Source: a virus. Taken from it: a DNA stretch of 20,846 nucleotides. The notes below the pieces were generated by a model. It was not told the DNA's origin, ran no database searches, and saw only the letters and a program-made list of their open reading frames with translations. Positions 3,237-17,355 of the stretch are shown here, in pieces. Each line of letters begins with the position of its first letter. Position 1 is the first letter of the stretch. The DNA is taken from positions 1 through 20,846 of the IMG/VR virus record IMGVR_UViG_3300020219_000075; one strand, given 5' to 3'. The translations under genes were made by a program, and so were the position numbers.

Positions 3237-3665
3237 ATGAAAACTCTATTATTTTTAGATGACATAAGAAACCCATTTGAGGAACTTGAAGGAGGAAGTA
3301 CCTGGTTAGTATTTAGTCCTATTCAACAGCCTTTTGAAACTGTATGGGTTAAGTCTTATCTAGACTTTACATCCTACATAGAAGTCAATGGATTACCGGA
3401 TGCTATTTGTTTTGATCATGATCTGGGATTAGATGAAGTACATGAGAAGAAGACTATGAGTAAGAGGGCCCTAAAGAAATTCCGGAAAACTGATGAGTAT
3501 AAAACAGGATATGATTGTGCTAAATGGTTAGTAGGATATTGTATAGATAAGAATCTAGCTCTACCTTTGTGGAATATACAATCAGCTAATCCAGTTGGAA
3601 AAGAAAACATAAACAGTTTACTTAATAACTATAAAAAATACTATAATGAGAAGACTGCATGTTAA
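3237..3665 (+). CDS. Receiver-like protein (cyclic-phosphate-processing receiver type)
   Basis: A 142-residue protein beginning MKTLLFLDDIRNP, with the paired acidic residues D8-D9 typical of receiver folds, then a second acidic cluster ICFDHDLG. The C-terminus has PLWNIQSANPVG. This layout (LxLDDxRxP, FDHDLG, HSxNP-like end) fits the cyclic-phosphate-processing receiver family found in phages and near RNA repair genes. No output domain is present, so it is not a classical two-component regulator. The family call is from memory and moderately sure. Confidence 0.6.
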   Translation: MKTLLFLDDIRNPFEELEGGSTWLVFSPIQQPFETVWVKSYLDFTSYIEVNGLPDAICFDHDLGLDEVHEKKTMSKRALKKFRKTDEYKTGYDCAKWLVGYCIDKNLALPLWNIQSANPVGKENINSLLNNYKKYYNEKTAC

Positions 3666-3802: not shown

Positions 3803-4033
3803 ATGAAAACATTTATTAAATACTGTTCTCTATGTCGTATCAAAGAATACTCTAAGAACAAAGAAAAGAATTCTATTATGATTTCAAGATTACTACAGTC
3901 TCATATTAACTATCATGAAGTAGTAACGAATGAGAATTATATTGATAGTGGTAACTATCTTTGTCTTGGCTTTATTGAGAAAGATCTGGAACTTTTAGTA
4001 CCGGAAATTAATAATAACTACTCAATCTATTAG
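3803..4033 (+). CDS. Small protein with NNYSIY C-terminal tail
   Basis: A 76-residue protein with CSLCRIKEYS near the N-terminus, a CxxC that may bind metal. It ends in INNNYSIY, the first of the shared C-terminal tails found in consecutive genes here. The leader TCTAAACTTAAACTCTAAG resembles leaders at the start of the window. The next ATG follows three bases after the stop, so this begins a tight operon (3803-5542). Function is unknown. Confidence 0.7.
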   Translation: MKTFIKYCSLCRIKEYSKNKEKNSIMISRLLQSHINYHEVVTNENYIDSGNYLCLGFIEKDLELLVPEINNNYSIY

Positions 4034-4036
4034 ATC

Positions 4037-4309
4037 ATGAAACCAAGTATACAAGAATCTGAAATGAATAGAGAACAAGATGAGATAGAAAAGTTATTTA
4101 GACAGGCCAGAATAATATATCCTATAGGTACTAAGTTTTTATCTACTTATGAAGGAGATGAGGCTATTGTTGGAGACCATGATTTTGAATGGATACCTGG
4201 TAGTAAAGCTGTTCAAAATAGTGATGGAGGATGGGTATATTCTAATAGAGAATGGGCAAAAATAGTATCATTATCAGAACTAGTTATTAACAATTATAAT
4301 ATTTATTAA
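4037..4309 (+). CDS. Small protein with NNYNIY C-terminal tail
   Basis: A 90-residue protein with an acidic helical N-terminus, then a beta-rich core (IYPIGTKFLSTYEGDEA ... WVYSNREWAKIVS) like small phage domains ending in WAxI. It ends in VINNYNIY. Its stop is followed within one base by the next start, so translational coupling is likely. No enzymatic residues are recognised. Confidence 0.7.
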   Translation: MKPSIQESEMNREQDEIEKLFRQARIIYPIGTKFLSTYEGDEAIVGDHDFEWIPGSKAVQNSDGGWVYSNREWAKIVSLSELVINNYNIY

Positions 4310-4310
4310 A

Positions 4311-4532
4311 ATGGAAATAGGAGACAAAGTAAAAGCTTTAGATTCTGGTCAAGTTAGTCCACAATCTGCAAGAAAAATGGATGAAGGAGAAACCGGAATT
4401 ATTAGTAGACTAGAGGGAAATATAATCTATCTTATTGCTGATAGAGATCAAGTAATTCTATGTAGAGATATAGATCATCTTACAGTAATAGAGAAAGCTG
4501 GTATAGTTAAAAATAACTATCAAATTTATTAA
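4311..4532 (+). CDS. Small KOW/SH3-like protein with NNYQIY tail
   Basis: A 73-residue protein. MEIGDKVKALDSG and EGETGIISRLEGN look like a KOW or SH3-like small beta-barrel, a fold often used for nucleic-acid or protein contacts. It ends in VKNNYQIY, the third copy of the tail. It lies in the same tightly spaced run. The domain call is from residue pattern only. Confidence 0.65.
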   Translation: MEIGDKVKALDSGQVSPQSARKMDEGETGIISRLEGNIIYLIADRDQVILCRDIDHLTVIEKAGIVKNNYQIY

Positions 4533-4535
4533 ACC

Positions 4536-4817
4536 ATGGCAAGATATAAAATAGGAGATAAACTAAAATGTCTCCCCGGTTTTATTATTAGAAGTAATAC
4601 TGATGCAGGAGCTGGATATGTAGAAAATAAAGTATTTATAGTTGCTAAAATTACTCCTAGTCAAAATAATGATTCTTGTATTTACTGGCCTCTTAACCAA
4701 GGAGCTGATTTACAAAGTGTGACTAATGGAGACGATAATACATATGAGCAACTTGGTATTTATGGCAGAGCTGTTACTCTAGCAGATGAAGTAGTAAATA
4801 CATATCAAATATACTAA
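4536..4817 (+). CDS. Small KOW-like protein with NTYQIY tail
   Basis: A 93-residue protein beginning MARYKIGDKLKCLPGF, again a KOW/SH3-like opening, with an AGAGYVENKVFIV strand pair. It ends in VVNTYQIY, the fourth tail in a row. Third-position codon differences in the tail (AAT/AAC, TAT/TAC, ATT/ATA/ATC) across the set argue that the peptide, not only the DNA, is conserved. Confidence 0.65.
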   Translation: MARYKIGDKLKCLPGFIIRSNTDAGAGYVENKVFIVAKITPSQNNDSCIYWPLNQGADLQSVTNGDDNTYEQLGIYGRAVTLADEVVNTYQIY

Positions 4818-4819
4818 CT

Positions 4820-5542
4820 ATGGAAAAATATATAAAAAAATGGCTAGAGACTCTTAAAGAACCTTATAGATCACAAGCATTGCATAATTATGATAAATCT
4901 AAGTGGTCAGGAAGACTAGAAAAAACTTCAGCACTTAGTAAGGCTTTATTTAGAGCATTTGATTGGAAAAGTAGTTCTGAAGAAGATGAGTATTGGAGAA
5001 AGATTCATAAGGATATTAAACATAATAGTGAATCTAAATATATTCAAGAGAGTAAACCAGTAATAGTAAATAATTATCAAATAAAAACAATAACTATGTC
5101 AGAGAAAACAGAAGTAGCATTAATTGATGCTGGAGTTCCACAAGTATTACAATTACTTAATGATAAAATTGCATCATTAAAACACATTGAAGAGACAGTA
5201 TATAAGACTACTGGTAATCTTGAAGGATTTGGAGATCTAACTAAAGAGACTAAGCTGGAAAATTTAATCCGGGCTTATTCTAGTGTGTTTCTAAGAGAGA
5301 AACATTATAATGAAGCAGCTGCAGATCTTGGATTGAAAACATACCCGGCATTTTCTATCTCTGGAGGAAATACAGAACAATGGAAACATGATATAGAATT
5401 AAGAATAAATATCATTACTCACAAAGAGTCATTAGATAAATTGAATGGCTATAAAGAAAAGATGAGTAAATTTATGTCAGAAGCTGAACAAAAGGCTATT
5501 CTAATTCAGGAAATGACAGAATTTTTTGGTAAAGGTAAATAA
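4820..5542 (+). CDS. Fused or dual-start phage protein with internal NNYQI
   Basis: A 240-residue frame. Residues 1-85 (KKWLETLKEPYRSQALHNYD ...) resemble small stand-alone phage proteins with an LPEPYRSQA-type opening. Residues 85-89 read NNYQI, exactly where the neighbours end in NNYQIY. Here the tail runs on through KTIT to an ATG at 5096 that opens a second, helical, acidic section (148 residues). The simplest reading is two ancestral genes joined by loss of the stop between them. Translation from 5096 alone may also occur. Confidence 0.7.
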   Translation: MEKYIKKWLETLKEPYRSQALHNYDKSKWSGRLEKTSALSKALFRAFDWKSSSEEDEYWRKIHKDIKHNSESKYIQESKPVIVNNYQIKTITMSEKTEVALIDAGVPQVLQLLNDKIASLKHIEETVYKTTGNLEGFGDLTKETKLENLIRAYSSVFLREKHYNEAAADLGLKTYPAFSISGGNTEQWKHDIELRINIITHKESLDKLNGYKEKMSKFMSEAEQKAILIQEMTEFFGKGK

Positions 5543-5866
5543 TAATATTTGGCCTCGGTCAAATAACTCTCATCCAAATAAAGAGACTCAAAAGGTCAGA
5601 TGATATAGCTATGATTGTTGGCAAGTATAATCTTAAATGACAGGTATAGCAAGGTGCAACCTTGTGAGAGTTAAGCTAAAGCTAGTATAATAAAAACACG
5701 TTTCAGAAATGAAAAGAGTTCTGGTATTGGTAATCCAGGTCTATGGTGTAAATACCATTTATATTAGTCTAATACATGAGAGGTCATGCCTTTCTATTAT
5801 CCAACCATGAATTAGGTGGCTCTGAAACTTATGAATCTTAGAAATAAGTGGAGGTTTCTCTAAAAG
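5543..5866 (+). ncRNA. Structured noncoding region, probable large RNA
   Basis: There is no gene here, but long exact complements enclose successive domains: AACTCTCA (5565-5572) with TGAGAGTT (5665-5672), and GTTTCAGA (5700-5707) with TCTGAAAC (5821-5828). Local hairpins inside are CAAGGT-GCA-ACCTTG (5650-5664), ATGGT/ACCAT (5743-5758) and GAGAGG/CCTTTC. A third set, ACTTAT/ATAAGT, follows 5828. This nesting looks like a multibranched RNA. I could not match it to a group I intron core or a known riboswitch. GOLLD- or ROOL-type phage RNAs are unproven possibilities. Confidence 0.5.
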
Positions 5867-7330: not shown

Positions 7331-8512
7331 ATGATGTTAAAAGCTTTTAAATATAAAATTAATCCAATTAAAGAACAAATCATTCTGCTTAATAAGCATA
7401 TTGGTGCATCTCGTTTTGTATATAATTTAGCTCTTGAAACAAAGCAAATGGCTTATATTGGTAATAAGGTTAATCTTTCTTGCTTCGCTTTGCATAAACA
7501 ACTTACCGAACTTAAAACTGAATGCGAATGGTTAAAAGAAATAAATAGCCAATCTCTACAACAATCAATAACAAACTTAGATAAAGCATACACTGCTTTC
7601 TTTAAAGGACAAAATGACTTCCCTAAATTTAAAAAGAAATCAAACGGTGGTAGTTTTAATATCCCACAAAATGTAATTTTAGAAAACGACAAACTTATCA
7701 TACCTAAATTCACAAAGAAAAACGGAATTGATATTGTTTTGCATAGACCAATTAAAGGTGAAATAAGACAAGCAACAATAAGTAGAACACCAACTGGTAA
7801 ATACTTTGTATCTATATTATGCGAAACTGGTGATAAAATAAAAATCAAACCTACGATTAAAGAAAAAACAACCATTGGTATTGACTTAGGAATCAAAACA
7901 TTTATTGTTGTATCAAACGGTAAAGAATATGATAATCCAAAGTTTCTTCGCAAAGCACAAAGTAAATTAAAATATATACAAAGTAAATATTCAAAGAAAA
8001 AAGGTAAAAGAACAAAACAAAAATTGGTTGTACTACATGAGAAGGTAGCTAACCAAAGAAAAGATTTTTTGCATAAAGTTTCAAGTGAATTGATAAGAGA
8101 TAACCAATCTATTGCAATTGAAACACTACAAGTATCTAATATGTTAAAGAACCACAAACTTGCACAATCAATACAAGATGCTGGTTGGAGTAGTTTTGTA
8201 ACAATGTTAGAGTATAAAGCAGAATGGCAAGGTAAGAACATATTGAAGATTGGAACATTTGAACCATCTTCGAAGACTTGTTCGTGTTGTGGTAACATTA
8301 ATAAAGAACTAACCCTAAAAGACCGTGAATGGACTTGTAATGGATGTGGAACTTTGTTAAATAGAGATGTAAATGCAGCCATAAATATTAAGAATTTTGC
8401 ATTAAGAAATAATTTGTCAGGAACTGACAGAAAAAATCGAGGTAAGTTGCCAACATTAGTTGGAACGTTGACCCTTGAAGCCCATCCCATCGCCTTTGGC
8501 GTGGGTGGGTAG
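7331..8512 (+). CDS. tnpB: TnpB RNA-guided nuclease (IS200/IS605 family)
   Basis: A 393-residue protein of the TnpB family, which uses a transposon-end RNA to cut DNA next to a short motif and so helps the element persist. The RuvC catalytic residues appear intact: D185 in GIDLGIKTF, E264 in IAIETLQ, and D346 in NRDVNAAINI. A four-cysteine zinc finger (CSCCG ... CNGCG) lies between the last two. The N-terminal helical part has the usual AFKYKINP and RFVYNLAL patterns. Two adjacent ATGs could start it. The stop codon lies in the right-end hairpin, as expected if the guide RNA overlaps the 3' end of the gene. Probably functional. Confidence 0.93.
   Translation: MMLKAFKYKINPIKEQIILLNKHIGASRFVYNLALETKQMAYIGNKVNLSCFALHKQLTELKTECEWLKEINSQSLQQSITNLDKAYTAFFKGQNDFPKFKKKSNGGSFNIPQNVILENDKLIIPKFTKKNGIDIVLHRPIKGEIRQATISRTPTGKYFVSILCETGDKIKIKPTIKEKTTIGIDLGIKTFIVVSNGKEYDNPKFLRKAQSKLKYIQSKYSKKKGKRTKQKLVVLHEKVANQRKDFLHKVSSELIRDNQSIAIETLQVSNMLKNHKLAQSIQDAGWSSFVTMLEYKAEWQGKNILKIGTFEPSSKTCSCCGNINKELTLKDREWTCNGCGTLLNRDVNAAINIKNFALRNNLSGTDRKNRGKLPTLVGTLTLEAHPIAFGVGG
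8481..8509 (+). ncRNA. Right-end hairpin, likely 3' scaffold of the TnpB guide RNA
   Basis: CCCA-T-CCCA-T-CGCC pairs with GGCG-TGGG-TGGG around a TTT loop, leaving two bulged T residues (12 pairs). In TnpB elements the guide RNA ends just past this hairpin, with the guide drawn from flanking DNA. Here the guide would begin near 8518 (TGGCCCGGTAGTTT), the leader of the tmRNA gene. Confidence 0.6.
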
Positions 8513-8549: not shown

Positions 8550-8925
8550 GGGGATGAAAGGTTTTGACAGCAATTGATTTGGTAAGTTAAGCAAGTAGTG
8601 AGATGTAATCTATCACTTTAATCCATGGTTATAAAATTAGATAACAACGTTATCATCAATGAAGTAGGAACATCTGAAGATGTACTCTTTGTAGTAGGAA
8701 AAGGATACAAAGTATCTCAACCTAAAGTTCAGGAAGTAGAATTGGCTATTGCAGCCTAAATACAACAAGTAGTATATGTTCCACTATAACATAAAGGGCT
8801 TCTAAGTTTGCTAGTTTAAGAGGAAAAAACTAAATATTTTGGAATGATAGAAATCATTATCCTAAACTTGTAGAAAAATTTAATAAACATTGTCTGGACC
8901 CGGCTATCGTATGCCGGCATCTCCA
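8550..8925 (+). ncRNA. ssrA: tmRNA (transfer-messenger RNA)
   Basis: 376 bases. The 5' end GGGGATG pairs over 7 bp with CATCTCC at 8918-8924 (one G-T), followed by discriminator A8925. CCA is not encoded (CAT follows). GGTTTTGACAGC matches the conserved D-loop region of tmRNA, and CTAAACTTGTAG before the T arm matches CTAAGCATGTAG of E. coli. The T arm is CCGGC/GCCGG with an unusual 8-base loop TATCGTAT. A hairpin AGTGA...TCACT (about 8598-8617) fits pseudoknot 1. The tag frame ends EVELAIAA and stops at 8757-8759. Possible resume codons are GGA at 8667 or 8697, both preceded by GTA. It would rescue stalled ribosomes during infection and tag proteins for Clp proteases. Confidence 0.85.
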
Positions 8926-9362
8926 CATAGATATAAAAGAGAAGTCAAAGTGTTAAGTTAGACTCTCTCCCTCTCTGAAGAGGAGTAATCTTCATGTAAG
9001 AGATGCCCTGAGTGGTTAAGGTTATCCAATGGTATTTACACCTGCTGCAGCAGACCTGAGGAAGATATTTGTTAGTGAAAGCTATTGGTATAGAGCAACA
9101 GTCCTCTAAACTGTAAATGCTGGTTTCCTAATAGTCTATGATTGATGGTGTCAATAATTAAAACGTATAACAAGCAAGTAGGCTTGCAACCATAAGAGTA
9201 GATAGCTAACAAATCTTTATTGAATAAGTAGCATGAAAGGGAATTTGAACCCTCTTGATAGCTCTTTAAATAGGGGACTAATGGACTCCAACACTTATTC
9301 AACTTATAAGTTTTCTAGAACTATAAACTAGATGGTGGAGCTAAACTAGTATTTAGCCTATA
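8926..9362 (+). ncRNA. Structured noncoding region after the tmRNA
   Basis: There is no credible gene. ATTTGTTAG (9067-9075) pairs with CTAACAAAT (9206-9214), and TTGAATAAGT (9220-9229) pairs with ACTTATTCAA (9293-9302), each closing a separate domain. Smaller hairpins are CCTCT-CTGA-AGAGG near 8972-8984, GAAGA/TCTTC, CTGCTGCAGCAG near 9042-9053 and GCAAG/CTTGC at 9174-9187. Some stretches look like pieces of tRNA arms (GAGTGGTTAAGG; ACAGT-CCTCTAA-ACTGT), but no complete cloverleaf forms. The block ends in a clean terminator, so it may be the 3' part of a long transcript or an RNA gene of its own. Confidence 0.5.
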
Positions 9363-17073: not shown

Positions 17074-17355
17074 ATGGAAAAAGAAGTCCTTGTACCAGAA
17101 GACATAGAGAAAGCTATTGAAGATCTTATAGATAATTCTCATCAGATTATTCTTTATAATGATGATATAAATAGCTTTGACTATGTTATTCGGGTATTGA
17201 GAAAAGTATGTAATCATGATCAGCTGCAGGCAGAGCAATGTGCCCAGATAGTTCATCACAATGGACAGTGCTCTATTAAACAAGGTAGTTATACTGCTTT
17301 AAGACCAATATGTGCTGCTCTTAATAATTTAAAATTAGATGCTGAACTCCACTAG
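17074..17355 (+). CDS. clpS: ClpS, adaptor of the Clp protease
   Basis: A 93-residue protein covering the whole ClpS core. ClpS binds the N-terminal domain of ClpA/ClpC and delivers N-degron substrates, while inhibiting degradation of ssrA-tagged ones. The N-degron pocket is intact: N29, D30, D31 in LYNDDINSF (E. coli N34, D35, D36) and H61 in VHHNG (E. coli H66). The gatekeeper position (E. coli M40) is F35, as I recall for Bacteroidota ClpS, and QAEQCAQIVHHNGQC is also of that type. The N-terminal extension (about 22 residues) needed to inhibit ssrA degradation is present. It was probably captured from a host. Confidence 0.88.
   Translation: MEKEVLVPEDIEKAIEDLIDNSHQIILYNDDINSFDYVIRVLRKVCNHDQLQAEQCAQIVHHNGQCSIKQGSYTALRPICAALNNLKLDAELH

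Follow-up and report, generated by a model that had tools for sequence, protein, structure and literature searches.

A C-terminal Y-x-I-[YF] peptide common to small, mostly unrelated proteins of ten viral records, and its linkage with a PHROG_2574-family gene

The capsid-targeting sequence of phage T4 is an N-terminal peptide of about 10 residues, carried by a few internal proteins and cleaved by the prohead protease. Cargo-loading peptides of encapsulins are short, flexible C-terminal sequences on unlike cargo proteins and are read by one shell protein, while the sliding-clamp motif QLxLF and the DIPF tip of SSB are short, often C-terminal peptides that recruit unlike proteins to one hub. Degradation tags of the ssrA/tmRNA type present an (A)LAA-like C terminus that is recognized by ClpX/ClpA. 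Here, we report a C-terminal motif (the tail) that lies in the peptide, is common to proteins with unrelated bodies, and occurs in ten viral records, in linkage with a PHROG_2574-family gene. The tail is probably a phage-encoded C-terminal docking tag on small unlike proteins, with the PHROG_2574 protein as its candidate receptor.

The tail array in the window

The stretch of DNA analyzed (the window) comprises a viral record of 20.8 kb (20,846 nt); its genes, tails, and tmRNA that are given below with positions lie on the plus strand. In this and all other records, open reading frames (ORFs) were picked in a simple way, the longest first. Four consecutive ORFs end in the tail, located exactly as a preliminary description of this DNA had given them: ORF 1 (positions 3803 to 4033; 76 amino acids [aa]; end LVPEINNNYSIY) in NNYSIY (4013 to 4030, with the stop codon at 4031 to 4033), ORF 2 (4037 to 4309; 90 aa; end LSELVINNYNIY) in NNYNIY (4289 to 4306), ORF 3 (4311 to 4532; 73 aa; end KAGIVKNNYQIY) in NNYQIY (4512 to 4529), and ORF 4 (4536 to 4817; 93 aa; end LADEVVNTYQIY) in NTYQIY (4797 to 4814). 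Ends of the form Y.[IV][YF] are found on 4 of the 45 ORFs of the window, where the frequency of this pattern within proteins predicts 0.01. The variable x aside, the four C-terminal tails show a single amino acid change (N to T, ACA), while the codons of their invariant residues differ at third positions (AAT/AAC, TAT/TAC, and ATC/ATT/ATA) and their stop codons differ as well (TAG/TAA). Selection on the tail peptide, proposed in the preliminary description, is strongly supported by synonymous positions that vary while the peptide holds.

The next ORF (4820 to 5542) holds a fifth tailed module and a PHROG_2574-family gene in one reading frame. Its first module (4820 to 5095) consists of a phrog_25460-like domain (residues 1 to 70 match phrog_25460) and then VNNYQI without a stop; the internal tail copy NNYQI (about 5069 to 5083) stands where the two modules meet and is followed by KTIT and by an in-frame ATG at 5096. 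From that ATG runs a PHROG_2574-family protein, the candidate tail receptor (5096 to 5542; 148 aa), which matches positions 62 to 138 of the 140-residue PHROG_2574 model (E value, 2.8e-5; residues 160 to 236 of the whole ORF). The module from ATG 5096 aligns end to end with stand-alone phage proteins (nine-row alignment), and an orthologue with 59% identity starts at the equivalent ATG. Since this part has stand-alone orthologues whose start is that ATG, the fifth tail, like the other four, stands at a gene border, yet without a stop. A cyanophage relative of the first module has a different continuation past the shared part, and the fusion in the window could be a frameshift or an assembly slip. 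The preliminary description had rightly seen a fifth copy in this ORF, but had taken it as internal to one protein; the copy marks a gene border instead, and both the fusion and the linked PHROG_2574 gene had been overlooked. In an AlphaFold2 model of the fusion, the PHROG_2574 part is predicted as a helical domain (pLDDT, 85 to 90), with a disordered tail (pLDDT under 30) that is not docked on this domain, a prediction that neither supports nor excludes tail binding.

Directly upstream of the array (3237 to 3665) lies a gene for a cREC_REC (cyclic-phosphate processing receiver) domain protein, with NNYKKYY near its C terminus. Two similar neighboring proteins of about 125 aa (1152 to 1529 and 1855 to 2238) had no Pfam match, and the roughly 320 nt right after the fusion ORF (5543 to 5866) had no convincing ORF and no Rfam match. 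A TnpB/IS605 OrfB-like protein with a Cas12f1-like TNB domain (7331 to 8512) is directly followed by a tmRNA (8550 to 8928; Rfam RF00023; E value, 8.6e-19), which was not called by ARAGORN on the window. A ClpS-like protease adaptor (17074 to 17355; PF02617; E value, 1.3e-17) is encoded near the helicase. The nearest matches of this helicase in the phage collection are phages of Flavobacterium and Bacteroides, which point to a member of the Bacteroidota as the likely host.

Further records, bodies, and flanks

Searches by DNA or tblastn against viral contigs and phages gave no useful close relatives of the tailed proteins of the window. Because these direct protein searches failed, viral contigs were scanned for DNA encoding NNYQIY and a stop, which gave 69 matches, 68 of them by chance (no ORF of at least 30 aa ending there). 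A 71-kb contig (G001) has nine ORFs with the motif end inside 14 kb and further ones across its whole length, and a homologue of the 5096 gene sits within its tail array. A search with that gene led to four more records, all tailed (G002, 164 kb; G003, 180 kb; L192, 8 kb; and G025, 132 kb), and two more tail-only DNA scans led to G026, G030, G034, and G035. The tail is thus present in nine further viral records beside the window (ten in all) and is not peculiar to the DNA in which it was first described; its absence from relatives, one of the two outcomes named in the preliminary description as speaking against a tag, was not found. The records are metagenomic and partial, and a single sample yielded both G026 and G030.

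Across the ten records, 146 ORFs have Y-x-[IV]-[YF] ends where about one would be expected, with expected counts again derived from how often the pattern occurs within proteins. By record, the tailed ORFs number 12 of 142 in G001 (0.03 expected), 6 of 18 in L192 (0.02), 13 of 231 in G002 (0.12), 38 of 333 in G003 (0.24), 31 of 217 in G025 (0.12), 25 of 149 in G026 (0.06), 7 of 143 in G030 (0.11), 2 of 108 in G034 (0.06), and 8 of 83 in G035 (0.08). When the last eight residues were counted free of any pattern, YEI or EIY was the commonest 3-mer in G002, G003, G025, G026, G030, and G035, at frequencies exceeding those of random internal stretches; no C-terminal 3-mer was enriched in T4 (first 50 kb) or FpV4. 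Exact DNA for YEIY or YQIY with a stop occurs in 9 (G001), 5 (G002), 31 (G003), and 29 (G025) copies, all on one strand, and in 0 to 2 copies in 20 helicase-sibling contigs. No tails were found in 80 helicase-sibling loci, and the 20 long contigs among them, used as controls, had neither arrays nor PHROG_2574.

The bodies in front of the tails are mostly unlike. With their last eight residues stripped, 92 tailed proteins from six records formed 62 body clusters (E < 1e-4); most bodies are without kinship, and the earlier proposal of a tag on unrelated small proteins is borne out strongly. Among the tailless loci examined, no untailed homologues of tailed bodies were found. Fold searches in the PDB with one tailed family and with the PHROG_2574 domain gave no convincing match (helical-bundle Z under 7). 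Pfam gave one strong match only for 105 tailed proteins, to a D12 Dam methylase; Dam homologues natively end in ELLITNF or EILVKNY, and since these C termini are similar, the tail-like end of this protein is no evidence of tagging and Dam methylase was rejected as a tagged enzyme.

The tail core is Y-[E/Q/D]-I-[Y/F]-COOH, and the prefix is phage specific, such as NN or EPQ. Flanking residues differ by phage at positions -8 to -5 (z, 4 to 13): the EPQ prefix of G025 is formed by 26 E, 28 P, and 26 Q among 32, whereas prefixes elsewhere are I-[IN]-N-[NS] (G002) or NN (the window), and NNYEI[YF] is another phage-specific tail form beside EPQYEIY. Homologous bodies across phages tend to bear their own phage's tail flavor, as seen in the WRYATPQEI family. 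A model of this family assigns pLDDT under 50 to the last six residues, with a better-modeled body, and the tail is accordingly predicted to be free.

Another common C-terminal motif, RKxRI[DE]xL, was found in LR756504, an unrelated 636-kb phage. About 27 small ORFs in the examined parts of LR756504 have RKxRI[DE]x[LI]-like ends, 23 of them within the first 130 kb, and one 50-kb stretch has 12 motif-ended ORFs against 0.09 expected (RK[SDEN]RI[DEN][NK]L at positions 1 to 130 kb and 590 to 636 kb; loci L304, L305, L311, and L312). Near C termini of this phage, enrichment was seen for the 3-mer IIE as well (14 ORFs). The body of ORF 4 of the window has homologues that are tailed proteins in two other phages (G003 and G025) and a further one in LR756504, which ends in RKSRIEKLHNENL instead. 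LR756504 and the window resemble each other in having a common C-terminal motif on small ORFs and one homologous body, but the LR756504 motif differs from the YxIY tail in sequence and is not always at the very end; tblastn detected no PHROG_2574 homologue in LR756504. Common C-terminal motifs thus occur beyond a single phage group, and a given body can exchange its motif.

All tailed proteins might be diverged copies of one gene, with the tail as the last conserved part of their fold. Some bodies are indeed paralogous, and several begin with (K)xGDxV, as in small beta-barrels. We consider such a common descent highly improbable, given the number of body clusters, a span of 45 to 186 aa in protein length, the predicted freedom of the tail from the body, and the homologous body that bears LR756504's own, different end motif.

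Peptide or nucleic acid signal

A nucleic acid signal (a translation-start, coupling, or recombination DNA element) could yield a common peptide as a by-product, and copies in the window do lie a few nucleotides ahead of the next ATG. A gene start near the stop is also commoner in tailed ORFs (110 of 146) than in others (720 of 1,323). Nonetheless, no gene start follows closely in 36 of the 146 tailed ORFs, a quarter; untailed genes that have a start close downstream mostly lack the motif; and the motif keeps a constant frame and distance to the stop.

Codon use in the 146 tails bears on the same question. Isoleucine at position -2 is encoded by ATC 15, ATT 62, and ATA 60 times (expected, 11.9, 65.8, and 59.3), and tyrosine at position -1 by TAT 107 and TAC 25 times (expected, 115.2 and 16.8); third positions at both sites track genome codon usage closely. 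The one exception to the codon background is an excess of TAC at the tyrosine of position -4, limited to tails with G as the next base (TAC 62 and TAT 63, against TAC in 5 of 24 tails with another next base), which appears to reflect avoidance because TAT before G would make an out-of-frame ATG. In 25 of these 63 TATG tails (G002, G003, and G034; loci L193, L206, and L294), the out-of-frame ATG, within TAT-GAA, starts an overlapping ORF. The 21 EPQYEIY tails of G025 are 100% identical at codon positions 1 and 2 and 73% identical at position 3, and the 30 nt upstream of them are 34% identical.

Conservation regardless of codon position, as in a DNA element for gene borders or translation initiation, was thus not found; the preliminary description had named equal constraint at all codon positions as evidence against its own proposal, and the constraint instead falls on the peptide. 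Tagging at the peptide level is well supported, because the bodies are unrelated, synonymous positions vary, a quarter of the tails have no close gene start, and the flanks are phage specific. A nucleic acid signal, to which the 25 tails containing an ORF start codon would also lend themselves, has been largely refuted already by the mostly free synonymous positions, and we give it almost no credence.

The linked gene, a proposed role, and known systems

The PHROG_2574-like gene was the sole family present in all six records first compared and was later found in nine of the ten; many tailed phages have few other proteins in common. Since several records had been found through this gene, a fair test of co-occurrence has to be restricted to multi-tail contigs reached through tail DNA only (n = 5). 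The gene is present in four of these (G001, G026, G034, and G035) and in none of 29 control contigs (the 20 helicase siblings plus nine that had chance tail matches only; Fisher test, 1e-4), and the fifth, the incomplete contig G030, had no PHROG_2574 match. In six of nine records, the gene lies 20 to 102 nt from the nearest tailed ORF; the distance is 279 nt in the window (the fused module ignored), 843 nt in G026, and 5 kb in G035. In the 87 kb of G034, just two ORFs are tailed; they lie directly upstream of the gene and end 20 nt before it. The motif is therefore genetically linked to a PHROG_2574-family gene.

The PHROG_2574-like protein itself has no tail. The proteins linked to the arrays are divergent members of the family (E values, 1e-8 to 3e-5; 1.5e-8 to 9e-6 for the homologues in other tailed phages), its relatives by predicted structure are unnamed phage proteins, in Bacillus phages CAM003 and Hakuna, and no PHROG_2574 relatives were found in genome contigs. 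Fusion, adjacency, and co-occurrence together make this protein the best receptor candidate, and we put its being the receptor or hub for the tails at slightly less than an even chance.

As a docking tag, the tail would be a C-terminal short linear motif on arrays of small, mostly unrelated proteins, all of which one partner would bind via their free, flexible C termini. The PHROG_2574 protein may act as that receptor or hub, and the tag would bring the small proteins, which are probably accessory factors or factors of host takeover, together at a single site in the infected cell.

The use ranked next in likelihood to such gathering is packaging into the virion: small proteins would enter the capsid by means of the tail, much as with encapsulin cargo peptides or the T4 capsid-targeting sequence, and be ejected into the host. 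This agrees with the many small proteins that have one common terminal tag and with the array of G001, which lies on a contig with ORFs resembling (by eye) T4-like portal and head proteins. Against it, no head gene was recognized in the window, and several G001 proteins begin with MKTYxxFINES-like sequences, which we take to resemble the T4 capsid-targeting sequence; a separate head tag may therefore exist, and we regard a cargo role for the tail as unlikely.

The tail could also act in turnover, as a C-degron or anti-degron. The ClpS-like adaptor and the tmRNA of the window indicate that this phage does interact with proteolysis, but ClpS-like homologues occur in 51 of the 80 helicase-sibling loci, which have no tails. 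A frame within the tmRNA match ends in ELAIAA, unlike the Y-x-I-[YF] ends of the tails, which thus do not have the form of an ssrA-type tag, and phage-specific prefixes would be unexpected for a host protease signal. A degradation signal is accordingly improbable, and docking on a phage-encoded partner is the reading that we carry forward.

More tentatively, large phages might run a zip-code system, in which a single adaptor encoded by the phage (PHROG_2574 for YxIY and another for RKxRIxxL) reads a phage-specific C-terminal address on dozens of unrelated accessory proteins. We hold this extension possible rather than probable; if true, new genes would join the program by gaining the address, and the hub or compartment would be one so far undescribed. 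Genes of large phages are mostly small and without known function, and a common label puts dozens of them into one functional class. The tail also names a candidate partner and offers a one-peptide handle for finding what the tailed proteins act on, and it would allow new members to be predicted in any phage from the C-terminal sequence alone.

No description of the tail (six strings and the concept) or of a link between PHROG_2574 and a C-terminal tail was found in the open-access literature, and the motif, the receptor candidate, and their arrangement are unnamed in Pfam, PHROGs, the PDB, and open-access papers. Like the T4 capsid-targeting sequence, the tail is a short terminal peptide on several small phage proteins, which it would likewise route to a common site; unlike it, the tail is C-terminal (at the extreme C terminus in the counted copies), has 5 to 7 residues, and occurs on up to 38 proteins per record. 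It shares with encapsulin cargo peptides a short, flexible, C-terminal form on unlike proteins, but differs from them in sequence and in having tags that differ by phage. QYEI[YF] has a superficial likeness, in sequence only, to QLxLF (hydrophobic-x-hydrophobic-aromatic), a motif of replication and repair proteins, but the ligase and helicase of the window have no tail, and the bearers are uncharacterized small proteins. No known family shows the defining features that were tested, and the mechanism proposed here is an inference. The proposed class, a short terminal targeting tag, has analogues, and the system would parallel, in viruses of bacteria, families of effectors with a common short targeting motif.
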